A stretch of 35,102 nt of DNA from a virus. The notes beneath the pieces are model-generated. The model did no database searches. It had not been told where the DNA came from and was given only the letters and a program-made list of their open reading frames with translations. This document shows positions 1 through 35,102 of this stretch, piece by piece; the stretch's first letter is position 1; every line of letters starts with the position of its first letter. Where the stretch lies: positions 1 to 35,102 of IMG/VR virus record IMGVR_UViG_3300049893_002375; one strand, 5' to 3'. Made by a program: the position numbers and the translations under genes.

Positions 1-188
1 ATAAGGTACTTTCACGCTATTAGGGGTTAGTTTTACTTCTCTTGTCGTATAGTTCAAACTCAGAGTACACAAAGAATCATCGGGGGTTGTCCAACCATGC
101 GGATCAACACAATAAGCACCCATTTTTTGTACCGGATCGGTTAAATCGCGTACATTTACAAAAATTTCACCATGGGTAGTATGTGAAA
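1..188. repeat. Left copy of the 188-bp terminal overlap
   Basis: Bases 1-188 recur at 34915-35102 with a single difference (C at 61, T at 34975). The overlap lies inside the tail fibre gene, and the difference is a synonymous Leu codon on the minus strand. The simplest reading is a circular or circularly permuted genome of about 34,914 bp whose assembly overlaps itself. The alternative, a true short direct terminal repeat, is less likely because the repeat lies inside a coding frame that stays open and in register across the join. Confidence 0.95.
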
Positions 189-4709: not shown

Positions 4710-7447
4710 TATGCAAGTCTCCTATTATCTTGATTCAGTGACAATATTGCTTTAGCTAGTTGGTTTTTATCAAGATAAATCGATATTTCTTTTTGTTGAT
4801 TTGCTATCAGATTGATTAATTCGCGCAATAGACTGTTTGTTTCTGCATTTCCTGATGCATTATTTTGGTTTTGATTGCCACCATATGCAAGGTTATCAAT
4901 AAGGCTAAAAAGTGAATCTGTGGTTTTTGGCCTTACTACCATTTCCCCTGATGTTAGCATTGCGGGATATTTATCATTAGGATAACCTTGCGGAACAACG
5001 CCACCCTCTGCCATACCAAATATTTTTTTGACACTTACTTTTTTTGCACCACCAAACATCCTATTAAACCATGCGGCTATATCTTCAAATGGTTTAAATA
5101 TTATATCTCTTAATGCTTGCCCAAATTTTGTAAGCATATCAGAAGAAAAAAACCCTTTAAAAGCGCTCCCTATTTCGCTTACCCAGCCCCATAATCTGCT
5201 CCAAATACTTTGTAAATAAAAACCTAGCCCATCAAAAAATCTACCTATCCAACCGACTAAACCGGTCATTATCCCGTCAATTATATTAGGAATAGCTTTT
5301 GTAATTAATATTACAATAACATTAACTAAAGCCCTCGCTAATGCGGCTATAACATCAGGTAGAGCTTCCATTAATGCAATAATTATAACGTCTAAATTTT
5401 CAGCTAGAGCCTCAATAATTATTGGTATGTTTTCAGCTATACTTATGATTATTTTAGGCAAGTATTCTGCTAAAGTAATAAATATTTTTGGCAGCCCCTC
5501 AGCTAATGCTTGAAATAATACTGGGATCATGTCCAAAATGCCTTGCAATATAACGGGAAGCGCCTCAACAATACCGTTGATAAGAATAGGAATATTGCTG
5601 ATGATTGCTTGAATAATGTCTGGTATTGCTTTAATAAAAGCGTCAATAAATTCTTTTAATTTTTCTCCACTACTAAGTGTATCAAAGAATCCTTTAATCA
5701 TAGAACCAAAGGCGTTACCTGTTCCGAATATTTTATCGACAACACCACCAACCGCACCCATTGTGTCACTTATTGCCGCTTTTGCCCCCTCGCTTCCTTT
5801 TGCTATGTTAGTAATAACAGCATTAACCGCCGTTGTTGCTACTTTGTTTATTCCTTCGGAAAAAGCGCTTTTTGTATTATCAGCAATTTTAGTTACAACT
5901 GAACCTATTTTTTCCCCGATATCATATGCGGTAAATTTTCCTTCCTGCGATAAACCGCGCTCAATCGGATCATTTTTTACAGCCTTCCATGATTTTTCAA
6001 ATAATGGATTTTTTAAATCTTGAAATTCCCTTATCATCCAATCGACACCGTACATAAAACCTTCGGCAATACTTTCCGTTAAAATTTCTTGCCATGTTTT
6101 TGGATTCTCTGGTTTATCTGTAGGCTCTCGCTCTTTTTTTGATCTTTCTTTTTTCTCTGTTTTACTTTCTTTTTCTGTAACATCAGAAATTTTATCTTGT
6201 AAGTCGCTAACATCAATTGCCGGTGTTATATCTATAGGAATTGGTTTTTTGCTTGCTGCGTTTACAATCCTATCAAGTGAAGCATTTATAGCTTTTTCAT
6301 CTATTTTGAACGTATCTTTAAAAACGTCCTTAAAACCTATAGCCAATTCATCTGATCGCTTTGCTATCCTATCAATAGCTTCTGACATTTGCTTAAAACT
6401 AATCTTTGAAAGATCGGTTCCAAGGGTTAATATCCCTTTAAAACCCATCTCTAAAGCGCGGATTGCATCCATTAAATTCATGAATGATTTAACTAGAAAT
6501 TCTACCGCATAACCTACGGCCTTGAAGGTGCTAGCGATTGTATTTAAAAAAGGTATTAACGAGCGAATGCCATTTATCAGGGTAATTATCCCATTATTTA
6601 CAAAGCTTATATGCCCATCTTTTGACTTTTCTACCTCACCAGTTAAATAACTAAACGCGTTACCTATCTCTTTTATTAGCTGAACCATAACCGGTGATTG
6701 TGTTATTGCCGATCCTAGCGAAGCGAAAAAATTACCTGTTACATTTCTTAATTTGGACATAGCCCCGGCGAAAGTATTTAATTCGTTTTCAGCAGCCCCG
6801 GCAAACTTCTTTGCCACAAGGTCAATAGCTCCCCCTGCTATTAAAGCTTCCTTGCTTAATCCTCTTATTTCCGGGATTGTTTCCGATAATTTACCAGCCG
6901 TACCATCCAATGATTTGCCTAAAATTTCTACAGCCGTACCTAAATCAATTTTCATAGCTGCGGAAAGATTTGCTGCGGCTGACACTAGCTTTTGTGCGGT
7001 TTCTGCATTTTTTGTAAAGTTTAACGCTATACCTAATTGGCCGTTTATTACATCATCATCGATTGTAGATAGATTCATCATTTCAGAGGCGAATTTTGAC
7101 ATATTGGCAGCCGCTTCGGTGCCAGCTAAACCAGCCCTTGAAAGCGCCCCGCTTAACAAATTCATATTGTTTTCAGCGTCTACAGCCTCATCAATTATGG
7201 TGTCGAAAAACCCCTTTATAGCTCCAACCGAGAATGCGGCAATAACAGCCGTACCAACCAGCTTTATTTTTGACGATACTGATTCCAAAGATGCATTAAT
7301 CTTTGATGTGTCTATGTCTAGCTTCGCCTTAGATGTTTTTTCTAGGGTTTTATTAAGGTTATCGGCTGATGATTCTACCTTGTCTATGCCAGAAACAGCG
7401 CCTTTAGTATCGACATTTATTGTTAAGTCTACATTATTTCCTGCCAC
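4709..7447 (-). CDS. Tail tape measure protein
   Basis: The protein has 912 residues. It starts with GTG (7447-7445) after an AGGGG ribosome site, overlapping the T-domain ORF by 14 bases. The N-terminal third is helical and Ala/Ser-rich. A charged Lys/Glu linker sits around residues 415-450. Residues roughly 600-740 contain a run of amphipathic hydrophobic repeats built on 'I..ALPVII..I' units, as expected for the tape measure's membrane-active and coiled region. The C-terminus has the familiar AEGGVVPQGYP...MLTSGEMVVRP segment seen at the ends of many tape measure proteins. It sets tail length and is threaded inside the tube. If the usual 1.5 angstroms per residue holds, the tail would be about 135 nm long. 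Confidence 0.92.
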   Translation of the reverse strand: MAGNNVDLTINVDTKGAVSGIDKVESSADNLNKTLEKTSKAKLDIDTSKINASLESVSSKIKLVGTAVIAAFSVGAIKGFFDTIIDEAVDAENNMNLLSGALSRAGLAGTEAAANMSKFASEMMNLSTIDDDVINGQLGIALNFTKNAETAQKLVSAAANLSAAMKIDLGTAVEILGKSLDGTAGKLSETIPEIRGLSKEALIAGGAIDLVAKKFAGAAENELNTFAGAMSKLRNVTGNFFASLGSAITQSPVMVQLIKEIGNAFSYLTGEVEKSKDGHISFVNNGIITLINGIRSLIPFLNTIASTFKAVGYAVEFLVKSFMNLMDAIRALEMGFKGILTLGTDLSKISFKQMSEAIDRIAKRSDELAIGFKDVFKDTFKIDEKAINASLDRIVNAASKKPIPIDITPAIDVSDLQDKISDVTEKESKTEKKERSKKEREPTDKPENPKTWQEILTESIAEGFMYGVDWMIREFQDLKNPLFEKSWKAVKNDPIERGLSQEGKFTAYDIGEKIGSVVTKIADNTKSAFSEGINKVATTAVNAVITNIAKGSEGAKAAISDTMGAVGGVVDKIFGTGNAFGSMIKGFFDTLSSGEKLKEFIDAFIKAIPDIIQAIISNIPILINGIVEALPVILQGILDMIPVLFQALAEGLPKIFITLAEYLPKIIISIAENIPIIIEALAENLDVIIIALMEALPDVIAALARALVNVIVILITKAIPNIIDGIMTGLVGWIGRFFDGLGFYLQSIWSRLWGWVSEIGSAFKGFFSSDMLTKFGQALRDIIFKPFEDIAAWFNRMFGGAKKVSVKKIFGMAEGGVVPQGYPNDKYPAMLTSGEMVVRPKTTDSLFSLIDNLAYGGNQNQNNASGNAETNSLLRELINLIANQQKEISIYLDKNQLAKAILSLNQDNRRLA

Positions 7448-7694
7448 GTTTAGCCCCTTTTGACTTTCTTTGCTTCTCTAGCTCATCATTCTCTTGTTTT
7501 TTTAGTTCGCTTTCAATGGCTATGAGGCATGTTGCTGTATATGCGTCTAATTCATCGCAGCTTGAAACATAACCTAGACCGTTTAAAACTTTCCTATCAA
7601 CATATAGCATTAAAAAAGGCATATCATCAGGGTTAACCCCATCATGTATGCCTTTGTACCAACATTTAACTGAAAATCTTAAACGGTCATAATC
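7434..7694 (-). CDS. Tail assembly chaperone, T domain, made by -1 frameshift from the upstream gene
   Basis: This frame has no convincing start of its own: the first in-frame ATG is at 7622, after several conserved-looking residues. It is open from the slippery site A AAA AAG at 7700-7694. Slipping by -1 there fuses 109 residues of the upstream chaperone to 86 residues starting DYDRLRFSVKCWYKGIHDGV, giving a 195-residue product. The T part ends in a Lys/Arg-rich tail and overlaps the tape measure start by 14 bases. This is the gpG/gpGT layout of lambda and many siphoviruses, in which the fusion recruits the tape measure to the tube subunits. Confidence 0.8.
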   Translation of the reverse strand, partial: DYDRLRFSVKCWYKGIHDGVNPDDMPFLMLYVDRKVLNGLGYVSSCDELDAYTATCLIAIESELKKQENDELEKQRKSKGAKRGRK

Positions 7695-8020
7695 TTTTTT
7701 GGTACAAAACCATCCCTAAGAATCCCAGCCATCCAAGCGATAACTATTTCCGCATCAACAAATGATGTCAAATCATCAAATGAATCTATAATTGAATCGG
7801 GGTCATCAAAAGATATGCAGTGAACCTTAGAAACAAATGATTCTAATAGCTCTATGATTTTCATTTCATCCTTTGCCACTTCTGTCATTTGTTCTTTTAT
7901 TTTTATCTTTTCTTTAAAACCCGGTATTCTCATCTCAATATATGATTCATCAGTAAAACACTGATCCGCTTTGCGCCCTTCGCTTTCAATATCCTTTAAA
8001 TAAAATTTTCTTTTAATCAT
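7679..8020 (-). CDS. Tail assembly chaperone (gpG-like)
   Basis: The protein has 113 residues and lies between the tail tube and tape measure genes, where tail assembly chaperones sit. The ATG at 8020 follows the leader ACACACGAAAGGATA. Near its end the mRNA reads CCA AAA AAG, giving the classical -1 slippery heptamer A AAA AAG four codons before the stop, so a fraction of ribosomes should make the longer GT form (see 7434-7694). The body is acidic and helical. Identity rests on synteny plus the frameshift signal. Confidence 0.78.
   Translation of the reverse strand: MIKRKFYLKDIESEGRKADQCFTDESYIEMRIPGFKEKIKIKEQMTEVAKDEMKIIELLESFVSKVHCISFDDPDSIIDSFDDLTSFVDAEIVIAWMAGILRDGFVPKKIMTV
7694..7700 (-). 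promoter_or_regulatory. Programmed -1 ribosomal frameshift site (A AAA AAG)
   Basis: The heptamer is read in the zero frame as A AAA AAG and followed by ATT ATG ACC GTT TAA. The -1 frame is open for 86 codons beyond it. It is the same heptamer as the strongest bacterial slippery site (as in dnaX) and sits exactly between the two chaperone frames. I did not confirm a stimulatory stem-loop downstream. Confidence 0.82.
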
Positions 8021-8059
8021 TTTTTATCCTTTCGTGTGTTTAAAAGAACCGGGATTTGC

Positions 8060-9568
8060 TTACACAAATCCCATGAATACTTCCAAAGAGCCATCATCCG
8101 GGACAAACGCGCTTACTTCAAATTCTACGGTCGTTAAACTATCATCATCACCGACCGTATAGCTATCAACCGAACAATAAGGCATGTAAAAGCTAAAACA
8201 CTTACCCGGTGTCCAATTACCGCCTGTTTTTGTTCCACCAACATACATAAATCGGCAATCTTTGTTTTGCAAAAGTCTATCGATTTTGTCTGAATCATAT
8301 TTATTAAGCAAACCAGTCACCGCGGCTGTAACAGTGCGCCCCGTAATTACCGAGCCTGATCGACCGCTTTCAGAGCAAATATTGTCAATGGTTTTTCTCT
8401 CGTTAGAAACGGTAATTTCCACGCTAGATGCCCCAAAACAAACATTGTCCTCTTGATCGCCAAAATAAACCAAATGTCCTTTTGCAGAAATTGGGTCGCT
8501 ATCATCAAATGTTGGTGTGAATGGAGCTGAAAGAACTTGCGCGTTATCACCTTCATAAGATGTTGCCCCGGTATCATCAGCGCCGGTATCAAAACCAATA
8601 ACTAAACCAATTGATGTTGCGGCATTCGCGCCCGTAATCCAAGGCAAGCTAAGTAATGCTGACGTACTTGTGGCAATGGTAAATTTTCCGGTTTGATTGG
8701 AGTATTTTACTGTGATGGTTTGCGTTGTCGCATTAGAAATGGCCGTTTCTATCGCTGAAGCTAACTCTTGTGGTGTCTTGTACCACCCCGAAGCAACAAC
8801 CGCGCTAGAAACCCCATCATCATCTTCAAAATCGATTGTGTTTGTGCTAGCTTCAATTTTAATGGGATTCCAATAATATTCAAGCGCCTCTAGCGAAAAA
8901 CTACCGTTAATTAATTGACCAGCTTCCGCAGTAAATGACATCTCAGTCACTTTAGCGCCGCGAACCATATCAATTGCCCCATCACCTCCAATATATCTCC
9001 AAAGTGTTAGCGAAGGATGGTTAGCGGTATTAATCGGGTAAAATGTTACAGACTTACCAAGTGAAACAGCCGCAGCCGGAGCTACATTGATTTTAAAACC
9101 GAGCGTTAGCGTATCTAGTAAGGTATCTATTGCATGAATAACACCGATAGAATAGCCATTTGTTGCATCCTTAATTAAAATTGTATCGCCTATCGAAAAT
9201 AATGATGCATCAGCTACTTTTATCGCCGTTGTTGTTGACCCTGCCACGGTGGCTAGCTCACTACCAGCAACCCTTTGACCGCCAAAAATACTCTTAATGA
9301 GCGGAGAATAGGCCGGGGCTTGCCCTTCAACTCCACTATGCTTGATATAGTGCGAAAAGCTAGCCGTTGGATTTTCCGCGCCCGTGATTTTTTTGGCCAT
9401 ACCAAGGGAATTTTTCAATTCCTCATTATCGAGTTTTTCAACTTCGGGTGCCATTTCTAGGTCGCTTTGAATAGGGATAAAACAGGTGCCAGAATCCGGC
9501 TCAATAATCGATCCCTCAGTTACCTCTGTTTTAATTGCAAATGTTGTTGCTTTATTAGAAATAGGCAT
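8060..9568 (-). CDS. Major tail tube protein
   Basis: The protein has 502 residues. Its ATG follows AAAGGAAAAAAAACC. It lies just before the assembly chaperones. The N-terminus (PISNKATTFAIKTEVTEGS) and C-terminus (VEFEVSAFVPDDGSLEVF) are styles typical of large siphovirus tube proteins. Residues about 238-345 look like an inserted beta-domain (NTIDF...PQELASAIETAI...TGKFTIA...SIGLVIGFDTGADDTGA), often found in phage tail and surface proteins. A related unit occurs in the distal tail protein at 3576. The insertion probably decorates the outside of the tube and explains the length. Confidence 0.85.
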   Translation of the reverse strand: MPISNKATTFAIKTEVTEGSIIEPDSGTCFIPIQSDLEMAPEVEKLDNEELKNSLGMAKKITGAENPTASFSHYIKHSGVEGQAPAYSPLIKSIFGGQRVAGSELATVAGSTTTAIKVADASLFSIGDTILIKDATNGYSIGVIHAIDTLLDTLTLGFKINVAPAAAVSLGKSVTFYPINTANHPSLTLWRYIGGDGAIDMVRGAKVTEMSFTAEAGQLINGSFSLEALEYYWNPIKIEASTNTIDFEDDDGVSSAVVASGWYKTPQELASAIETAISNATTQTITVKYSNQTGKFTIATSTSALLSLPWITGANAATSIGLVIGFDTGADDTGATSYEGDNAQVLSAPFTPTFDDSDPISAKGHLVYFGDQEDNVCFGASSVEITVSNERKTIDNICSESGRSGSVITGRTVTAAVTGLLNKYDSDKIDRLLQNKDCRFMYVGGTKTGGNWTPGKCFSFYMPYCSVDSYTVGDDDSLTTVEFEVSAFVPDDGSLEVFMGFV

Positions 9569-9584
9569 GGTTTTTTTTCCTTTC

Positions 9585-10040
9585 TTAATACCCTATGAAT
9601 GTTTCTAGTGAAATCGTCAATTCTGACATAACTATTTTTTTATTGCCTGATGTTATCGGTATTATTCCGCTATCACCAACAATTGCAGCTATCGCATTTC
9701 CCCCAGCTATACCCAAATATTGATCGTTTTCTATAGCTATTACAACAGAACTAACAGCCTCTAGCAATTTCTTTATGCTATCATCATATGAAATTTCATC
9801 AGATTCAGTTCCGAACACCTCAACAGAAATAGTTAAAACATAATTTCTTCTATAGCTATTTATCTTGCATAGATTTCTATCGGTGTTTGCCGATGATTCA
9901 GCTATTAGCGACCATCCCTCTCTTAAAAAAAGATCGAAATTTTGGCTAGTATCATTCGGATTTGTTAATCGATAAAATGTTGGAAGTGTTACCTTGATTA
10001 AGGAAACAAGCGCATCATATGATGTTGAATGTATTGTCAT
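9585..10040 (-). CDS. Tail terminator-like protein
   Basis: The protein has 151 residues. Its start overlaps the stop of the 278-residue connector gene as ATGA, and it lies directly before the tail tube. Size and position match the tail terminator or minor tail protein that caps the tube and joins it to the head. The fold looks mixed, with N-terminal helix and strands (LCKINSYRRNYVLTISVEVF) and a C-terminal strand. The call is by synteny. Confidence 0.6.
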   Translation of the reverse strand: MTIHSTSYDALVSLIKVTLPTFYRLTNPNDTSQNFDLFLREGWSLIAESSANTDRNLCKINSYRRNYVLTISVEVFGTESDEISYDDSIKKLLEAVSSVVIAIENDQYLGIAGGNAIAAIVGDSGIIPITSGNKKIVMSELTISLETFIGY

Positions 10041-10873
10041 CTATAAAAACCCGTTTCGCTTCTATCATATGTTTTTTGTGTTTTAACAATACGCGCGCTA
10101 TTATCAATCCCAAATTTAGATGTGGCAAGAGATTGACAAAATGCCTTATTTGCAATTTGCGCCTCATCTTTTAGCCTACCAAGCCCCTTATAAATCAATT
10201 CGGCTGTTTTATGTAGGCAAGGCTCTTTTAATAGCCTCCAATCTAAAAATTGTTCTCCGGTTCTAACCATTCCGCGCATTATTAACTCTGATATAACCCT
10301 ATCCGAAGCTATTATTCTTTGCTCTTCCCAAGTAACCTTATCAGAAGAAAAAGCGCGCATATAAGATGTTGCTTTTAAATCCGGGTATTCGGTAAATAGA
10401 GCCGCATCAGACTCGACAAACAATTGACCAATATATGCTAGATTAATTTCATCTATATCCACTGAAACAGTTAATCTCGTCCAATACAAATCATAATAAC
10501 CATCTATATTTTGTAGCTCTGAAATATATTTGGATGACTGTGAACAAGGAAATTTTGTATCACTTGCTATAAGATTTATTATTCCGCTTTTACCTAGAGT
10601 AGCCCCATCAAAAGATGTTCCATCAATAATATGCTCAAAATCAACAAATTCGGTAGCGTCTAAATAGGCTACACCTAGTGTTGATACAATGGCATTTGTT
10701 AGCGAAGGAATCCGAATAAATATCGAATTAAAAGGTAAAGGCGTTCCGATATAAATAGCGTCCGTAGATTTTAATGTCAAAAATTTACCATCATTATTTA
10801 TATCGGTTACTAAAGATGAAATGTCTGTTATTACGCCGGATATTTTAGACAAAACAACGCTTTGATTTATCAT
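10037..10873 (-). CDS. Head-tail connector/adaptor-like protein
   Basis: The protein has 278 residues, between the decoration-like gene and the tail terminator-like gene. The C-terminal half is helical (ISELIMRGMVRTGEQFLDWR, then a helix with KTAELIYKGLGRLKDEAQIA), as expected for a head-tail adaptor, while the N-terminal half is beta-rich. The ATG at 10873 has a weak ribosome site (AGGTTGAAAG). No named family is recognised. The role is inferred from position. Confidence 0.52.
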   Translation of the reverse strand: MINQSVVLSKISGVITDISSLVTDINNDGKFLTLKSTDAIYIGTPLPFNSIFIRIPSLTNAIVSTLGVAYLDATEFVDFEHIIDGTSFDGATLGKSGIINLIASDTKFPCSQSSKYISELQNIDGYYDLYWTRLTVSVDIDEINLAYIGQLFVESDAALFTEYPDLKATSYMRAFSSDKVTWEEQRIIASDRVISELIMRGMVRTGEQFLDWRLLKEPCLHKTAELIYKGLGRLKDEAQIANKAFCQSLATSKFGIDNSARIVKTQKTYDRSETGFYR

Positions 10874-20051: not shown

Positions 20052-20357
20052 TTATTTCGTTTGTACTTGTCTCAAAATTTCAACCAACAAAGCGCTATTA
20101 GCAGCTACTTGACCAGAATCTAGCCCGCCTTTTCCGAGCCAAAAGCTTTGACTAGCCGGATCAATGCTAGTTACAGCGCGGTTTTCTTCAACGTCAAACT
20201 CACTAACGCGCTTGTCAAGAACTTGACCGCAACGCGAGTGAATCGCATTAGAGCCGCTCATAGTAGTAATGAAAGAAGAATTGAAAATTCTGCTTTGCAA
20301 TGCTACATCATTAGCGATTTGCGTACTCATTAATTCAGACACATCGATTTCTGCCAT
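20052..20357 (-). CDS. Tandem paralogue B of unknown function
   Basis: The protein has 101 residues and starts after an AGGGAG ribosome site. It aligns without gaps to the neighbour at 20410-20721 at roughly 60% identity by my hand count. Shared blocks are HSRCGQV.DKR, 'RAVTS.DPA.QS' and EILRQVQ/EVLRQVQ. The N-terminal half is helical. There is no membrane segment or known motif, and one conserved Cys is in HSRCGQV. It is the second gene of a strong-promoter unit that ends at the terminator at 19989. Confidence 0.62.
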   Translation of the reverse strand: MAEIDVSELMSTQIANDVALQSRIFNSSFITTMSGSNAIHSRCGQVLDKRVSEFDVEENRAVTSIDPASQSFWLGKGGLDSGQVAANSALLVEILRQVQTK

Positions 20358-20409: not shown

Positions 20410-20721
20410 TTATTTTTTCCCGCCCTGTACTTGCCGTAAAACCTCGATCAATGTTGAAGTAGACATAGCTACTTGCCCAGCGTCTAAACCTGCCTTCGAT
20501 AATAGATAGGATTGTGTAGCGGGATCGACACTGGTTACAGCCCTAACCTCTTCAATATCGTATTCAGCAATGCGCTTATCCATAACTTGACCACAACGCG
20601 AATGGACAGCCATACTTCCAGACATATTGGTTATAAACGCGCTATTTGCGATTCTAGCCTGTAACACAACATCATTTGCCACTTGCGCCATCAGCATGGA
20701 ATACATATTAATTTCTGACAT
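20410..20721 (-). CDS. Tandem paralogue A of unknown function
   Basis: The protein has 103 residues, with a good AGAGGTAG ribosome site. It is first in the unit and a near-full-length paralogue of the gene at 20052-20357. It has a helical profile and a conserved HSRCGQVMDKR, with the two copies differing mostly by conservative changes (I/V, F/Y, S/A). The tandem retention suggests both are used, perhaps as a hetero-oligomer. The strong upstream promoter suggests high expression. I do not recognise the family. Confidence 0.65.
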   Translation of the reverse strand: MSEINMYSMLMAQVANDVVLQARIANSAFITNMSGSMAVHSRCGQVMDKRIAEYDIEEVRAVTSVDPATQSYLLSKAGLDAGQVAMSTSTLIEVLRQVQGGKK

Positions 20722-24751: not shown

Positions 24752-25291
24752 ATGATTAAAATTTTGGACAAATACATAATAATTGTGATTATGGGGTTAT
24801 ATTTTTCCGCATGTGGAAACGGCCTTGATCGGGTTGATACAATCCAAGGCGAACCCGGCGTTAATGGGGATAAAGGAGACAAGGGAGATAAAGGAGACAA
24901 GGGAGATAAAGGAGACAAGGGAGATAAAGGAGACAAGGGAGATAACCAACCGCAGCCACCTACAACACAACTTCCAACCGGCCAAAATTATCCTATGCCG
25001 ACACCGTACCCATATTATTACCCGCTCCCTATTCCTAACACGCAGCCGCAGCCAATTCCGCAGCCGCAGCCAATTCCGCAGCCGCAGCCAATTCCGCAGC
25101 CGCAGCCCGATTGCTACAACTATGGTTATGAGGATTCTTTTTTGCTTTGCGGAAATCATCAACAACAACAACAAAAAAACAAATCGGGTTGTGTGTATAT
25201 TTGCGCTTGCGTAAATGATACATGGCAAACTCTTTATGTTAACATTCATGATGTTCCTAAGTATAAAATCAAATGGCATGGAAGGTGTTAA
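24752..25291 (+). CDS. Collagen-like/proline-rich Cys-rich lipoprotein
   Basis: The protein has 179 residues. A signal of about 20 residues ends in YFSA-C (lipobox Cys21), so the protein is predicted to be lipidated and anchored to a membrane. Residues about 32-66 begin with GEP-GVN and contain eight GDK triplets in a row, a collagen-like stretch. Then comes a proline-rich segment with PQPIPQP units, and a Cys-rich C-terminal part (LLCGNHQQQQQ, VYICACVND, WHGRC). The GDK part (24867-24946) and the PQP part (25040-25109) are each built of 18-base tandem units. The ATG follows GGGGGTTTT. Proline-rich lipoproteins occur among outer-membrane spanins, but this one is larger and no inner-membrane partner is obvious. 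The next gene starts 1 base later. Confidence 0.72.
   Translation: MIKILDKYIIIVIMGLYFSACGNGLDRVDTIQGEPGVNGDKGDKGDKGDKGDKGDKGDKGDKGDNQPQPPTTQLPTGQNYPMPTPYPYYYPLPIPNTQPQPIPQPQPIPQPQPIPQPQPDCYNYGYEDSFLLCGNHQQQQQKNKSGCVYICACVNDTWQTLYVNIHDVPKYKIKWHGRC
24867..24946 (+). repeat. 18-bp tandem repeat encoding Gly-Asp-Lys
   Basis: GGAGATAAAGGAGACAAG-type units repeat about four times. Each unit encodes two GDK triplets, so copy changes keep the frame. Confidence 0.85.
25040..25109 (+). repeat. 18-bp tandem repeat encoding Pro-Gln-Pro units
   Basis: Units of CCGCAGCCGCAGCCAATT repeat about four times and encode PQPQPI. This is a second independent in-frame repeat in the same gene. Confidence 0.85.
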
Positions 25292-25292
25292 G

Positions 25293-25838
25293 ATGAATAA
25301 TTTAATTCTAACAACTATGATTGTTTTTGCTGTTAATGGCTATTCCCAAGATATGTCAAAGGCTAGCCAAAATGCAGTTATAACCGTTTCTAAGGAATCA
25401 GTAAAAAACGAGTATGATTGTGTTGAGAAGAAAACTTGCGAGAAAAAACTATCTGAATTAGAGGCGGAGAATGAATTTTTAGTTAAAGAAATAGAAAAAC
25501 TACGCAAGAAACTAGCTACAACAAAAACAAAGACGAACACCGTCTATGTAAAAGCACCCCCAGAAATAAAAACAGAGATTAAAACAGAAACAAAAACTAT
25601 TGTTAAATATCGAGACATGTTTCCAACCGGATCAATAAAGCTTTATTTGGGTTATGGTCAAAATGGTTTAGAAACCGAGCCGCAGAGGGTTGACCACGTT
25701 CATTATGCCCAAACATATGAGACAATACTAGCCGGGTTAGGATATACATGGTTTTTTAGGGATAATCTAGGTTTGGGAATTACCGCCTTTTCAAACAAAA
25801 GCATAATGATTAATGGAGATTATTTGCTATATAATTAG
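25293..25838 (+). CDS. Exported coiled-coil protein with C-terminal beta-strand domain
   Basis: The protein has 181 residues from the ATG at 25293 (after GGAAGGTGTTAAG, 1 base after the lipoprotein stop). Residues 1-19 look like a signal peptide (NNLILTTMIVFAVNGYS). Residues about 50-85 are a coiled coil (KKLSELEAENEFLVKEIEKL), then a Lys/Thr-rich linker, and the last ~70 residues show alternating strand patterns (SIKLYLGYGQNGLE; ILAGLGYTWFFRDNLGLGIT; SIMINGDYLLYN). A coiled coil followed by about four strands is the layout of trimeric outer-membrane anchors such as YadA, an inference from layout only. It is co-transcribed with the lipoprotein and ends in the hairpin at 25837. Confidence 0.65.
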   Translation: MNNLILTTMIVFAVNGYSQDMSKASQNAVITVSKESVKNEYDCVEKKTCEKKLSELEAENEFLVKEIEKLRKKLATTKTKTNTVYVKAPPEIKTEIKTETKTIVKYRDMFPTGSIKLYLGYGQNGLETEPQRVDHVHYAQTYETILAGLGYTWFFRDNLGLGITAFSNKSIMINGDYLLYN

Positions 25839-28707: not shown

Positions 28708-28974
28708 TCAAATTTCCTTTTGTAAATTACTGCATTTCCAACATCTTTTCTTAATTGTTTCTATCTCACATTGCATATAATCTATTTTAGTACCTTTAAC
28801 GGCTAGGGATTCCCTTACCTCGCCTATTTCGTTTACGAATTTATCCAATTTATTCAACATTTGGGTCATAAAAGAATCTAAATTTTTTCTAATGGATGAA
28901 ATTAAATAATATCCTATTGTTGATAAACTCCCAGCCGAAGCGACAATTAACCCTACTATAGCTTCATCAGTCAT
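28708..28974 (-). CDS. Membrane-anchored coiled-coil protein (holin- or spanin-like)
   Basis: The protein has 88 residues, starting MTDEAIVGLIVASAGSLSTI; a TTG at 28986 would add four. One transmembrane helix (about 5-27) is followed by a coiled coil (SFMTQMLNKLDKFVNEIGEV) and a final CWKCSNLQKEI. The layout recalls XhlA-type and inner-membrane spanin-like proteins, and it is the best visible candidate for a lysis membrane component. Close to the fibre gene with a 2-base gap. Confidence 0.55.
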   Translation of the reverse strand: MTDEAIVGLIVASAGSLSTIGYYLISSIRKNLDSFMTQMLNKLDKFVNEIGEVRESLAVKGTKIDYMQCEIETIKKRCWKCSNLQKEI

Positions 28975-29000
28975 AGCTAACCCCAAAAATTAATGGTTAT

Positions 29001-29038
29001 GATTTGATTTTAAAAGATTATTTGTAACAAATCAAATC
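29001..29038. promoter_or_regulatory. Inverted repeat at the metalloprotease promoter
   Basis: GATTTGATTT (29001-29010) and AAATCAAATC (29029-29038) are perfect 10-bp arms with 18 bases between. They overlap the plus-strand promoter candidate TTGTAA (29022-29027) with TAGAAT (29046-29051, 18-base spacer). The intergene to 28975 is divergent, so both genes may share control. Confidence 0.5.
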
Positions 29039-29091
29039 ACCATGATAGAATCAGTTTACATTCTTTAACAAAGCAATAACCGGGGGTTGAA

Positions 29092-29952
29092 ATGAAGGCT
29101 TTCTTATTTCTATTGTCTCTTTTAGTTTTATCATGCGGTTCTCACTCAAAAGGCGGCAAAGATGAATCAGGATTTAAAAAATCTTTCATGCCAGAAAATA
29201 ACTTGCATTTATATGATGATAATAGCGCCGCAAATATGAGCGAAGAAACATTTAATAGGATAATTGACCATGCTTATCAAATTTACGCGCCCATTGTCCA
29301 AAATCTTGGTGGTAATCTCGTTTTTGAACGTAATTATAATGATCCTATTGTTAATGCTTATGCTAGCCGTTCTGGAAATGACTGGAAAGTATCGTTATTT
29401 GGTGGATTAGCAAAAAGAAAAGAAGTTACTGAAGACGGATTTGCTTTAGTTATTTGTCATGAATTAGGACATCATCTAAATGGCTGGGTATTTTATCCAA
29501 ATTCATGGGCGGCAAGTGAAGGTAGCTCAGATTATTATTCTACCGCTTCTTGTTCAAAAAAACTATTTGCAGCTATCGAAACAGACACCACAAAAGTACC
29601 AAAATGTCCATTTGCCCCTGATGCAAGCGATTATGATTACACACCATGCAAAGGGTTTGCTTTTGCGGCTGATAAAGAATCATGCCAGCGCTCACTAGAT
29701 GCCGCTCTGAGTCTATCAAAGCTTTTATCCGCATTAGGTAGACAACCAACACCTAGCCTATCAACTCCCGACAAAACAATCGTTAGAACAACGCAAACAA
29801 CTCACCCAAACGCACAATGTAGACTTGACACAATGGCGGCGGGTGTGATGTGTGAAAAACAATGGAATGATACAATCATTCCACAAGATAAGCCAACCAT
29901 GCAAGAAGTCGCATGTGAGAAAACTTTTCCTAAATGTTGGTACGCCGGGTAA
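29092..29952 (+). CDS. Lipoprotein zinc metalloprotease
   Basis: The protein has 286 residues. The signal ends in LVLS-C (lipobox Cys15), so it should be lipid-anchored in the envelope. The zinc-binding motif HELGHH (123-128) gives two His ligands and catalytic Glu124, and EGSSDYYST (from about 143) supplies the likely third ligand, as in gluzincin-type families. Nine further Cys follow the lipid Cys, which suggests an oxidised extracytoplasmic fold. The ATG follows GGGGGTTGAA. It overlaps the convergent minus-strand gene by 23 bases. Such secreted metalloproteases are common in predatory bacteria, so host-derived capture is plausible. Role could be envelope remodelling or lysis. Unusual cargo for a phage. 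Confidence 0.78.
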   Translation: MKAFLFLLSLLVLSCGSHSKGGKDESGFKKSFMPENNLHLYDDNSAANMSEETFNRIIDHAYQIYAPIVQNLGGNLVFERNYNDPIVNAYASRSGNDWKVSLFGGLAKRKEVTEDGFALVICHELGHHLNGWVFYPNSWAASEGSSDYYSTASCSKKLFAAIETDTTKVPKCPFAPDASDYDYTPCKGFAFAADKESCQRSLDAALSLSKLLSALGRQPTPSLSTPDKTIVRTTQTTHPNAQCRLDTMAAGVMCEKQWNDTIIPQDKPTMQEVACEKTFPKCWYAG

Positions 29953-30271
29953 TTTTCTTGCATCTATTTTTTCCATAAAATTTAGCCCCCGCGATTCTTA
30001 CCGCATAATAATTGCGGTAAGCTTGTGCGGTATACCAAGCCCGCTTGTGTATGGCCATTTTTTTGGTTTCTTCTAACATCATATGCAAGAAAATTTCATC
30101 TGATTTTTTTCTAGTATTTATACAAATATGGTAGTTATAATCATGCGTGTTTCCGGCCTTATAGAATATATGGCTAGATGGTAATGCATGTAATATTTTG
30201 GTTAAAATTTTAGTGTCACTAGCTCCAACACCGTTGAATTTTTCACCGCAAAAAGGACATTTTTCTAGCAT
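29930..30271 (-). CDS. Phospholipase A2-like (DUF1353-type) small protein
   Basis: The protein has 113 residues from the ATG at 30271 (GGGGG leader); an upstream Met at 30304 lacks one. It has CPFCGEKF near the start and the key THDYNYHIC, which fits the phospholipase A2 active site pattern H-D-x-x-Y-x-x-C. It is followed by 'KSDEIFLHMM' and 'AYRNYYAVRIAGAKFY', the end seen in phage DUF1353/PLA2-like proteins (AD..F...Y.AVR..G). It sits last in the tail-fibre operon. Might aid envelope crossing or lysis. The call is moderate; the calcium loop is not clear. Confidence 0.5.
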   Translation of the reverse strand: MLEKCPFCGEKFNGVGASDTKILTKILHALPSSHIFYKAGNTHDYNYHICINTRKKSDEIFLHMMLEETKKMAIHKRAWYTAQAYRNYYAVRIAGAKFYGKNRCKKITRRTNI

Positions 30272-30294
30272 AAAACCCCCATATTTTGCTAAAA

Positions 30295-32358
30295 TTACAC
30301 GCAATTACCAAAAAACGACCCCGCATAATGATGTTTGGTAATGCCCGTTGTATCACCAAAATCACTTAAATAAAGCCATTCAGAATTAAAAGATATTCCG
30401 CCCGGCAATAAATAAAGCCTATGATTTTCCGGTGAATAACAAGCTCCATAGATTGTATTACTTATTGTTTGGTGTGTGTAAGCTACAATGTTTCCAGTGT
30501 TACAATCGAGATAATGCCAATAAACACTGGTTGAAGCTTGCGCCGGTATAAAATAAACCCTATTAGTTGTTGGCATGTAAAAAGCACCCTGATAACCATC
30601 ACCAACAATAGCGCCCATACCATGAGCATATGGAACAACTAAACCAGTATTGCAATCAATATAATGCCATGTTGCTTGATTTGATTGTTTCCATGGAGCT
30701 AGATAAATCCTGTTTTGTGTCGGTGAATAACAGCCGCCATAATATGCGCCATCAACACACGAAGCGCCATGAGCATAGGCAATATGCGCGCCTGTATTGC
30801 AATCAATATAATGCCAATATGTTTGGTCGGCTTGATATGATGGTACAAAATAAATCCTATTATCCCGTGGTGAATAAACCGCCCCGGCATAAGCATATTG
30901 CGCCGGCGGGTTAGCTCCAACCGAATAGCTTTGAATTGAGCCTAAAGTACAATCCCAATAGTGTTGAATAGATTGCCCGGCCTGTCCGCTTGGTGCAAAA
31001 TAAATCCTGTTTTGTGTTGGTGAATAACAGCCACCAAAATATGCGTTTGCTTGTACACTTGCGCTATGAGTATATGCAACAACCGCCCCGGTATCACAAT
31101 CAATATAATGCCATTGCGATTGACTAGATTGAGCATCAGGAATAAGAATTATTTTGTTTTCAGTCGGTGAATAAACCGCACCAACATAAGCATATAATTG
31201 ACATGTTGCCCCATGAGTATAGGCAACAACCGCCCCGGTATCACAATCAATATAGTGCCATTGCGATTGATTTCCTTGCGCCCATGGAGCTAGATAAATC
31301 CTGTTTTGTGTTGGTGAATAACAGCCACCCTTATATGCATTATAACCAAGGGTAAATGCATGGCTATATTTTTTAGTGAAATGACCCACATTTTTATTTT
31401 TTATATGTAATTGTAAAAGCGGTTTCATCCACTGGTCAACATCTTGAGCGCCCGTTAACGCTGGCATTTCATTTTTAATCAAAGAATTTCCGTAATGAGT
31501 TTTTATGCCAGAAAAATCTTGATTTTCCGTTGTTACTATTCCCGGTACAATTTGGCTAGCAGCTTGAATATATAATTCAGCCGGTGTATTGTTATCGTAA
31601 ATTCTAATTATATAGTTTACACCTACATTTTGCGGCCTTGTTTCATTGTCTCCGTTTCCTAAAGATACGTTCGGAGTAACACTTAAATTGAAACCATGGC
31701 CGTGTCCACTACCTGATGTGTTAATAGATGCATAACCGGTGCCAATTCCCGCATAACTATTTGCTACGTTTGTTGGAGAACCATTGCCACTTGATGACCC
31801 AGCTAAGGAAGCCGAACCGCCCGCATCAGGTAATAAGAAATTATGACCATGGCCATTATCTCCGTGTGTGTGCGTTCCATCAGTACCTCCAACCGTACCA
31901 CCTACGGCGCTAGAGCTAGCTGATATAGCCAAACCTCTTTTTGCGGTTTTGTCTTGCTGAAATTCACCAAGCGCTGTATTTTGAGTAACCCTAGAAACAT
32001 TTCCCGCGCCTCTCAAAAAAGAGCCTCTTAAATCAGGTATGCGAAAATTATTTGTCGTATTTGATACACTTCGCGCATTTCCTGTTAGTGGGTTTGCTTC
32101 TGTATTCCATGATAAAGCTACTCTATTTGATAAATCTTGAAATGATGATTTTGAGACAATAGCACCGTTGCACCATGCCCAGCCGTTTTTTACATAAATA
32201 TGTGTAGCATCATTTTCGCCGCCTGTTTCAGCTACAGCAATTTGTGTCCATTGTGTTACATCATCAGAGGTGGCAACAATAGCTCCCGCCATTTGTATTG
32301 ATTCTCTTGAATATGGTACGGTTATAATTCCGGTTGTTTTACCAATTTCTATGGTCAT
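30295..32358 (-). CDS. Tail collar protein with seven-repeat beta-propeller C-terminus
   Basis: The protein has 687 residues, with an AGGGGT ribosome site. The N-terminal ~260 residues hold a phage tail collar domain (WAWCNGAIVSKSSFQDLS; FRIPDLRGSFLRGAGN), with His/Gly-rich THTHGDNGHGHN and GHGHG stretches likely to bind metal along a fibre. From about residue 345 to the end seven repeats of about 48 residues occur, each of the form 'GGCYSPTQNRIYLAP' then 'WHYIDCDTGAVVAYTH'. Seven such repeats suggest a seven-bladed propeller, an unusual receptor-binding head. The gene follows the 62-residue gene in the fibre operon. Confidence 0.8.
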   Translation of the reverse strand: MTIEIGKTTGIITVPYSRESIQMAGAIVATSDDVTQWTQIAVAETGGENDATHIYVKNGWAWCNGAIVSKSSFQDLSNRVALSWNTEANPLTGNARSVSNTTNNFRIPDLRGSFLRGAGNVSRVTQNTALGEFQQDKTAKRGLAISASSSAVGGTVGGTDGTHTHGDNGHGHNFLLPDAGGSASLAGSSSGNGSPTNVANSYAGIGTGYASINTSGSGHGHGFNLSVTPNVSLGNGDNETRPQNVGVNYIIRIYDNNTPAELYIQAASQIVPGIVTTENQDFSGIKTHYGNSLIKNEMPALTGAQDVDQWMKPLLQLHIKNKNVGHFTKKYSHAFTLGYNAYKGGCYSPTQNRIYLAPWAQGNQSQWHYIDCDTGAVVAYTHGATCQLYAYVGAVYSPTENKIILIPDAQSSQSQWHYIDCDTGAVVAYTHSASVQANAYFGGCYSPTQNRIYFAPSGQAGQSIQHYWDCTLGSIQSYSVGANPPAQYAYAGAVYSPRDNRIYFVPSYQADQTYWHYIDCNTGAHIAYAHGASCVDGAYYGGCYSPTQNRIYLAPWKQSNQATWHYIDCNTGLVVPYAHGMGAIVGDGYQGAFYMPTTNRVYFIPAQASTSVYWHYLDCNTGNIVAYTHQTISNTIYGACYSPENHRLYLLPGGISFNSEWLYLSDFGDTTGITKHHYAGSFFGNCV

Positions 32359-33172: not shown

Positions 33173-35102
33173 TAAATAACCTCCCAATTAGCCCCGTTTG
33201 AGATAACTTGCAATGATTCAAACCGAGATAAAATAACACTTGTTAAACCGTCAATTGTCTGACTACTTGTCGTATTAATAGTTAGCAAAATTCCCGCATT
33301 CATATTGCTTTTTATAGTATAAACAAGCCCCCTAATACCTACCGCATTAGGTAGTGTTACAGCATAACCAGCCGAGCCGGAGCATGAGCTATAAGGATAG
33401 CTTATGGATTTTGCCGATGTTATCAATTCAACGCCTAAAGATAGAGGCAAATTTGGTAAAACTATGTTGTTATCATCAGTATCAAGACAAAAAAGATTGG
33501 TTGAAATATAGCAAAACTCAACCCATGTTTCTGATTTGTATATTTTTACAGAAGTATCAACCGCACCCTTATAATAAAATTGATCGCTACCTACTCTATT
33601 TATTATCGCCCTATAATCAACAGAGTAATTTTTTACGACTGATATTCTAAAGACAACTTCAGAGGCGGCGCTTGGAGCGTTAAAACTAACATCCCCAGTA
33701 GCCCCAGACATATCTACAATATAATGCTTTCCGGTTTCCAAGTTAACAATGCTTGGCGTTGTTCCCGATACTGTTATAGTTACCGGAGATAACCCACCCC
33801 CAGCCTCTTTTAGTTCTGTTCCATTATCGTAAAGAACTTTTTTAATATCTGTAGCATAGTAAACCTTACCAGCCGACCTAGCCATTGCCAAAAGGTTTGC
33901 ATAAGTAGTGTACGGCAAAAGCATTGATGCGCTAGTATTTTGCGCGTTACCTCCCGTACCAACAAAACCAGCCATAACCTCCGAATATTTAGACACTGGC
34001 AAATGATAATAATCGTTTACATTCCCGCCCTGTATTCCTGATAGACTATTATGATTTGATGCGCTTTGACCAGCTACTGGGTTAAGGCTAGATGTGCGCC
34101 AATCTATGAAATAAACCCCAGTATCAACGCTAACGATTCTTGATTTAGATAGGTTTGAATATGAGTTTGATGTTTGATAGATAAACGTAGCTACCGCTCT
34201 GTACTCTTCAGCTACTAAACCGGCCATTATCAAATTTGATAATTCTGTTCTAGCCGCTAACCTTGCTGATGTTGGGTTTCCGTAATAATCATTACCAACA
34301 ATCACGGCAAACTCATTGTTATGCATTGCAAATAAATGACATAAAATAAAATTATTGTTTGGGGTTTCAGATAAATTACCAGCTATTGGGTTATAAGCAG
34401 CCCTTCCCGTTCCTGTATTTAAAACACCACTAGCTGAATCATTACCGAGCAATCTTCGCCATACACCGGCATTTGTCCTATAATATTTGTAAATGTTTCC
34501 TGATTCCAATTTTTGAGCAATTGAAATAGGTATATCCTCATCAGCTATAGAGCCGCTTGTCACACTAAATCTAGCATGAGAATCTAGCGCCCCGCTTGCA
34601 TCAGGATTAGAAACAGTCGGATTCAACCCTGATTCATACTGGGTTGATAAATACTTATGCTTGTAAAGCCAATCGCGCTTCAAAAACCTAGTCGAATGGC
34701 GCTCATTTGCCATTATTACGGCATTACCCAAATCATCAATTAGAACAAAAGCAACATAAATATGGGTATCTATTAGCTCTGCAATTGGTAATGATCCGGC
34801 AAATTCTGCAAACTGTTTTGTTGTGCAATTAAAACAAACAAAATGTTTCCCTGCGATTGGTGGTACTGTAAAGCTTATTGTCGATTCTAAAAACTTTAAT
34901 TCTCCCTTATGATAATAAGGTACTTTCACGCTATTAGGGGTTAGTTTTACTTCTCTTGTCGTATAGTTCAAACTTAGAGTACACAAAGAATCATCGGGGG
35001 TTGTCCAACCATGCGGATCAACACAATAAGCACCCATTTTTTGTACCGGATCGGTTAAATCGCGTACATTTACAAAAATTTCACCATGGGTAGTATGTGA
35101 AA
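33172..35102 (-). CDS. Tail fibre/structural protein, C-terminal part (continues from the left edge)
   Basis: This is the continuation of the gene that begins at 765 on the minus strand; the frame is open to the right edge. An internal Met codon at 35037 could be mistaken for the start. The C-terminal part carries a fibre-like motif, NHNSLSGIQGG followed by DYYHL, which is typical of phage tail fibres and head-binding fibres. It also has Gly/Ser-rich beta segments and a C-terminal region resembling fibre shafts (SQTIDGLTSVILSRFESLQV). The stop TAA (33174-33172) overlaps the ATG of the next collar gene as TAATG, so the two are translationally coupled. Likely role: tail fibre or tail-tip component contacting the host. 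Confidence in a tail role is high; the precise part is uncertain. Confidence 0.82.
   Translation of the reverse strand, partial: SHTTHGEIFVNVRDLTDPVQKMGAYCVDPHGWTTPDDSLCTLSLNYTTREVKLTPNSVKVPYYHKGELKFLESTISFTVPPIAGKHFVCFNCTTKQFAEFAGSLPIAELIDTHIYVAFVLIDDLGNAVIMANERHSTRFLKRDWLYKHKYLSTQYESGLNPTVSNPDASGALDSHARFSVTSGSIADEDIPISIAQKLESGNIYKYYRTNAGVWRRLLGNDSASGVLNTGTGRAAYNPIAGNLSETPNNNFILCHLFAMHNNEFAVIVGNDYYGNPTSARLAARTELSNLIMAGLVAEEYRAVATFIYQTSNSYSNLSKSRIVSVDTGVYFIDWRTSSLNPVAGQSASNHNSLSGIQGGNVNDYYHLPVSKYSEVMAGFVGTGGNAQNTSASMLLPYTTYANLLAMARSAGKVYYATDIKKVLYDNGTELKEAGGGLSPVTITVSGTTPSIVNLETGKHYIVDMSGATGDVSFNAPSAASEVVFRISVVKNYSVDYRAIINRVGSDQFYYKGAVDTSVKIYKSETWVEFCYISTNLFCLDTDDNNIVLPNLPLSLGVELITSAKSISYPYSSCSGSAGYAVTLPNAVGIRGLVYTIKSNMNAGILLTINTTSSQTIDGLTSVILSRFESLQVISNGANWEVI
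34915..35102. repeat. Right copy of the 188-bp terminal overlap
   Basis: This is the same sequence as bases 1-188 except T34975 in place of C61. Joining base 34914 to base 1 gives a gene of 2508 nt that is exactly in frame. Confidence 0.95.

Follow-up and report, generated by a model that had tools for sequence, protein, structure and literature searches.

YcaL and LoiP are outer-membrane lipoproteins of E. coli that belong to the M48 metalloproteases, a family throughout which an HPx4R motif is conserved and in which H246 of the member BepA was found to coordinate zinc (PMC7950410). A gene with a comparable predicted product was found in the window, i.e., the whole stretch of DNA analyzed here, which is a virus record from IMG/VR with a length of 35,102 nt. 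This ORF (29092–29952 on the plus strand; ATG at 29092, end of the stop codon at 29952) is predicted to encode an M48-like zinc metalloprotease lipoprotein of 286 aa, and homologues at the same locus were detected in three related phages (G001, G007, and G011). The product can be likened by description to YcaL and LoiP as an M48-type protease that is, in this case by prediction, exported and lipid-anchored, and differs from them in being encoded by a phage and in the spacing of its motifs.

Motifs and family assignment of the protease

Inspection of the N-terminus revealed a signal peptide with a lipobox, VLSC followed by Gly (29092–29136, plus strand), in which Cys15 is the predicted lipidated residue. 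A lipobox-like stretch with a Cys was also present in the copies of the three related phages. Gly at position +2 is no inner-membrane retention signal according to a rule that is known for E. coli and not for this host. Besides Cys15, the protein contains exactly nine Cys (residues 122, 154, 172, 186, 198, 243, 254, 275, and 282), and eight of the Cys were nearly invariant across the family alignment. We infer export and membrane anchoring of the protease from its lipobox together with the numerous conserved Cys.

Conservation was assessed in an alignment of 84 relatives, of which 82 were full-length. The zinc-binding and catalytic motif HELGH (residues 123–127; 29458–29472), which opens the stretch HELGHH, was found with H123, E124, and H127 in all 84 rows, a conservation that is partly by construction, because HExGHH was included in the search patterns. 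EGxxD was absent from the genome search pattern, and the motif EGSSD (29518–29532), the beginning of EGSSDYYST at residue 143, was equally invariant at E143 and D147 (84/84); by its motif, E143 is the probable third zinc ligand. The stretch HPNAQCR (residues 238–244; 29803–29823), which corresponds to the M48-type HPx4R active-site plug motif, was found in 82 of the 82 full-length rows. The 110 residues between HExxH and HPx4R lie within the M48 pattern HExxH-x(30-140)-HPx4R, a signature that appeared in only 5 of 200,000 shuffles of the protein. With this signature, phage homologues at 42–48% identity and hundreds of bacterial homologues, sequence comparison indicates that the ORF is more than a product of chance.

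Pfam M48 (PF01435) matched the window protein with 23.5 bits (cut-off 20.3) over residues 83–131 only, and recognized 32 of the 84 family members (E ≤ 0.01). An earlier note, made from the DNA letters, had described a phage-carried gluzincin-type metalloprotease lipoprotein and had pointed to HELGHH, EGSSDYYST, a lipobox and nine further Cys, all of which are present in the ORF. The HMM search of gluzincin families proposed there gave the Pfam M48 match above its cut-off, and the residues of the zinc-ligand motifs (HExxH, E143, and D147) are kept in all 84 relatives, a loss of zinc ligands having been named there as counter-evidence, so that the Pfam match and the invariant ligand motifs support this description at the level of sequence.

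Profile comparison of the family with ordinary M48 proteins gave a probability of 86% and an E-value of 5.5e-6 in a single comparison, in which the M48 ExxAD was aligned near residue 190 and not at E143. The region NAYA...GGLA of the protease aligns with the NAFA...GL strand of M48. The order of motifs in the family is HExxH, EGx[SA]D after 13–36 residues and then HPxAQCR, whereas ordinary M48 proteins from the same bacteria show HExxH, ExxAD after 51–82 residues and then HPx4R. The distance from ExxxD to HPx4R is about 95 residues in the window protein compared to 42–59 in those ordinary M48 proteins, and the eight conserved Cys further set the family apart from M48, with which it shares HExxH, HPx4R and, probably, the ExxxD motif.

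No fitting NCBIfam model was found, and the family has no dedicated model in either Pfam or NCBIfam; some members gave weak matches to M6 and M12B. The protease had no match in annotated phages, in PHROGs or, by sequence, in the PDB, where a profile search gave only weak and evidently chance matches, mostly to ribosomal proteins. Searches of viral and genome contigs with the single sequence likewise returned nothing, and relatives were recovered only by motif and alignment searches.

The AlphaFold2 model of the protease (mean pLDDT 87.9) placed HExxH within a predicted helix at residues 114–129. Foldseek gave no significant match of this model in the PDB (best E 0.11). The structural matches in the VIA-align list were led by neprilysin/Zmp1 and BepA (Z 8.6 over 137 residues), which scored similarly, a result that is in favour of a gluzincin fold and singles out no particular family. 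The minigluzincins jannalysin and selecase, which are much smaller proteins, matched with Z 5.7–6.7 over about 104 residues and share a compact zincin fold, a comparison at the level of the fold only. Judged by its sequence, the protease is very probably an M48-like enzyme, and we regard the family, whose members are predicted zinc proteases, as an M48-like variant that has diverged.

Distribution of the family and probable host

One and the same family emerged from viral contigs searched by motif and from bacterial genomes searched by alignment, and 389 genome stretches were found to encode relatives of the protease. The best 79 loci were mostly from Bdellovibrionota, with a few from Pseudoalteromonas, Lysobacteraceae, and others. 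At E ≤ 1e-20, the family profile matched 249 of 369 Bdellovibrionota genomes; among the 398 Pseudomonadota genomes sampled, it matched only 1, which was the search seed itself. Since the family is nearly restricted to Bdellovibrionota, the host of the phage is probably a member of this group, and the protease thereby ties the phage lineage to bacteria whose phages are poorly known. A contig from a Bdellovibrionota genome (G179:C299) encodes a terminase at 49% identity; it has only three genes in common with the window and gave no protease match, and for these reasons it is weak evidence of a host and may be mis-binned. Outside Bdellovibrionota, the relatives from Pseudoalteromonas (L037, L039, and L041) possibly reflect horizontal transfer; each of the two Pseudoalteromonas genomes checked contained one copy.

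The probably secreted M48-like proteases of Bdellovibrionota belong to the same family by full-length similarity (about 35–44% identity). The phage copies of the window lineage differ from them in forming a clade of their own and in carrying a lipobox, whereas many bacterial copies have ordinary-looking or ambiguous signal peptides. In a smaller search, 6–11 matches were obtained in each of five Bdellovibrionota genomes, although a few of the matches were fragments of a single split gene. The bacterial family, for which no dedicated model exists and which reaches 11 matches in a genome, appears to comprise uncharacterized, probably secreted proteases that are worth studying in predation.

This multiplicity bears on what the phage gene may do. 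The phage copy might add to the hydrolases that Bdellovibrionota secrete against prey or polymers, and so aid the host or the escape of virions from prey remnants. In phages with a relative of the protease, genes for papain-like proteases and for a GH5 cellulase-like protein were also found. In B. bacteriovorus, the different, serine-type protease Bd2269 promotes exit from the prey and can lyse E. coli cells from the inside (PMC12546842), a precedent showing only that proteases can act in this way in these bacteria. The copies of the window lineage, however, carry a predicted lipid anchor and would not be freely secreted. Help in predation is thus viable in view of the digestive enzymes of the likely hosts, and we consider it rather improbable.

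The gene in the phage lineage

The two ends of the window (1–188 and 34915–35102) share an overlap of 188 nt that contains one mismatch, which fits a genome of about 34.9 kb in full length; the genome is probably complete. At the window ends, a large tail-fibre gene is interrupted. Terminase, major head, tape measure and tail collar proteins are encoded, and no integrase or repressor was recognized in the window. A tandem of two genes on the minus strand (20052–20357 and 20410–20721) encodes small proteins that resemble each other, measure about 100 aa and have no Pfam match; the pair was also found in the three related phages.

Seven IMG/VR contigs had terminases with 65–71% identity to that of the window. 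The long relatives G001 and G007 encode the protease at 42 and 48% identity, and G011, as a fourth contig, also carries it. All four phages showed the same gene order, i.e., a DUF1353-like gene, the protease gene on the other strand and a small gene whose product has a hydrophobic N-terminus. The protease has diverged to about the same extent as its neighbours (tail fibre 43–50%, DUF1353-like protein 34–36%, small protein 33–42%), and the four phage copies formed one clade (support 99/83). Its GC content was 0.388 compared to a phage mean of 0.373 ± 0.039, its GC3 was 0.258 compared to 0.307, and its codon use was ordinary for the phage. The protease is thus a stable and long-standing part of the phage lineage. 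The captured cargo proposed from the sequence in the earlier note is not supported if a recently acquired or dispensable passenger is meant; recent capture was rejected, because the locus is fixed in four phages, the copies form one clade and the composition is phage-like; an older origin of the phage gene from the bacterial family is possible. The lineage thus retains a predicted protease, presumably directed to the envelope, of a family nearly restricted to Bdellovibrionota.

Upstream of the gene, an operator-like inverted repeat was detected at 29000–29039, with arms TGATTTGATTT (29000–29010) and AAATCAAATCA (29029–29039) that match at 11 of 11 positions around a spacer of 18 nt. A similar 13-bp repeat (92%) was found in G007, and no clear inverted repeat was found in G001 and G011. 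A suggestive extended -10-like motif of the TGRTANNWT type, TGATAGAAT (29043–29051, plus strand), lies 40 nt before the ATG, and similar motifs, chosen post hoc, were found 30–40 nt 5′ of the protease start in all four phages. Matches to consensus promoters in the upstream stretch numbered 10 compared to 7.3 ± 2.6 in shuffles, which is no clear excess. The repeat that had been reported together with a promoter was thus recovered in full, while the promoter itself stands on weaker ground; a promoter belonging to the protease gene is plausible.

Neighbouring genes and possible roles

The protease gene lies on the plus strand and the neighbouring virion genes on the minus strand, as had been described before, and it is therefore outside the late operon. 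On its own strand, the next genes in all four phages encode an exported-looking protein with a coiled coil (25215–25838 in the window) and then a lipoprotein with a match to collagen repeats (24752–25291), in the same order. Cys were observed in the C-terminal part of this collagen-like lipoprotein. The three exported-looking products, sharing a strand opposite to the virion genes and a conserved order, could alter the surface of infected or carrier cells, e.g., by trimming receptors, and thereby block superinfection. The operator-like repeat upstream of the protease gene and a weak HTH match of the Cro/C1 type next to the gene for the collagen-like protein in G001 speak for this reading. On the other side, no integrase or repressor that would point to a carrier state was recognized in the window, and the genes that adjoin relatives of the protease in other phages (G014/G022 and G008) are those for an amidase, papain-like proteases, and SNase. 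Surface modification is kept viable by the strand of the gene and by its exported neighbours; all in all we regard it as possible, although unlikely.

A different picture emerges from the genes that directly flank the protease gene. The DUF1353/group XIV phospholipase-A2-like gene (29930–30304, minus strand; probable start 30271), conserved beside the protease gene in the four phages, overlaps it tail to tail. Its DUF1353 match was below the cut-off (E 0.0044), and the top structural matches of its low-confidence model (pLDDT 69.9) were bacterial and fungal PLA2s (Z 6–7.3). A His-Asp and a later Asp were invariant. The DUF1353 protein TtaP is reportedly a PLA2, according to a study that also mentions DUF1353 proteins from prophages (PMC11525133). 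On the other side, a divergently oriented gene (28708–28986, minus strand), also conserved in the four phages, encodes a protein of 92 aa with a hydrophobic N-terminus and a helical tail, for which no family match was found. No endolysin was recognized among the window genes tested, a part of which were compared with Pfam, and the window may encode an endolysin of unrecognized type.

In G014/G022, the relative of the protease is preceded by an Amidase_2 gene and a papain-family lipoprotein gene and followed by an SNase gene (L117 in G014, 5387–10062). In G008, the order is papain-like protease, protease relative, SNase, and a second protease relative that retains HExxH and EGQAD (L114, 2–3631), and in G017 the relative is followed by SNase beside tail collar genes. 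Based on the constant PLA2-like neighbour, the degradative neighbours in other phages and the lack of a recognized endolysin, we tentatively favour, at somewhat below even probability, an exported, lipid-anchored and disulfide-rich M48-like endopeptidase that helps in envelope breakdown and exit from the infected cell. Such a role is weakened by the strand of the gene, which is opposite to that of the virion genes and shared with the genes for the collagen-like lipoprotein and the exported protein, an arrangement that also fits surface modification. M48 enzymes moreover cleave proteins and not peptidoglycan, which counts against a function in lysis. The earlier note had suggested damage to the envelope from its outer side or a benefit to host fitness; of the two, envelope attack is favoured by the neighbouring genes, on whichever side of the membrane the protease may act.

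As judged from the motifs and known families, the protease would be exported by Sec, lipidated at Cys15 and anchored in the outer membrane, where H123, H127, and E143 would hold the zinc, E124 would activate water, and H238 of the HPx4R plug would regulate access to the active site. For envelope breakdown, it would be made in the infected cell and cleave envelope proteins, and the adjacent PLA2-like enzyme and the small putative membrane protein would act with it to weaken the envelope, leading to breakdown of the cell and release of virions. That these three products form a module replacing a recognizable endolysin/spanin set is doubtful; such an envelope-breaking module, if real, might have arisen as an adaptation to a host that lives within the cells of its prey. 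If the lysis role is true, the locus would provide a testable case in which lysis or exit relies on enzymes that cut lipids and proteins and replace the standard set.

The motif set and the lipoprotein form are also those of the E. coli M48 lipoproteins (PMC7950410), and a quality-control protease similar to YcaL or LoiP might clear stalled outer-membrane proteins or phage envelope proteins during infection. We consider this very improbable, as the spacing of the motifs and the disulfide-type Cys differ, and relatives in other phages neighbour degradative enzymes. Some of the relatives in other phages, at 8279–9085 in G017 (L118) and at G019:C1:37369-38192, were found to be broken by in-frame stops or frame changes, which may reflect decay of the gene in some phages or errors in the assemblies.
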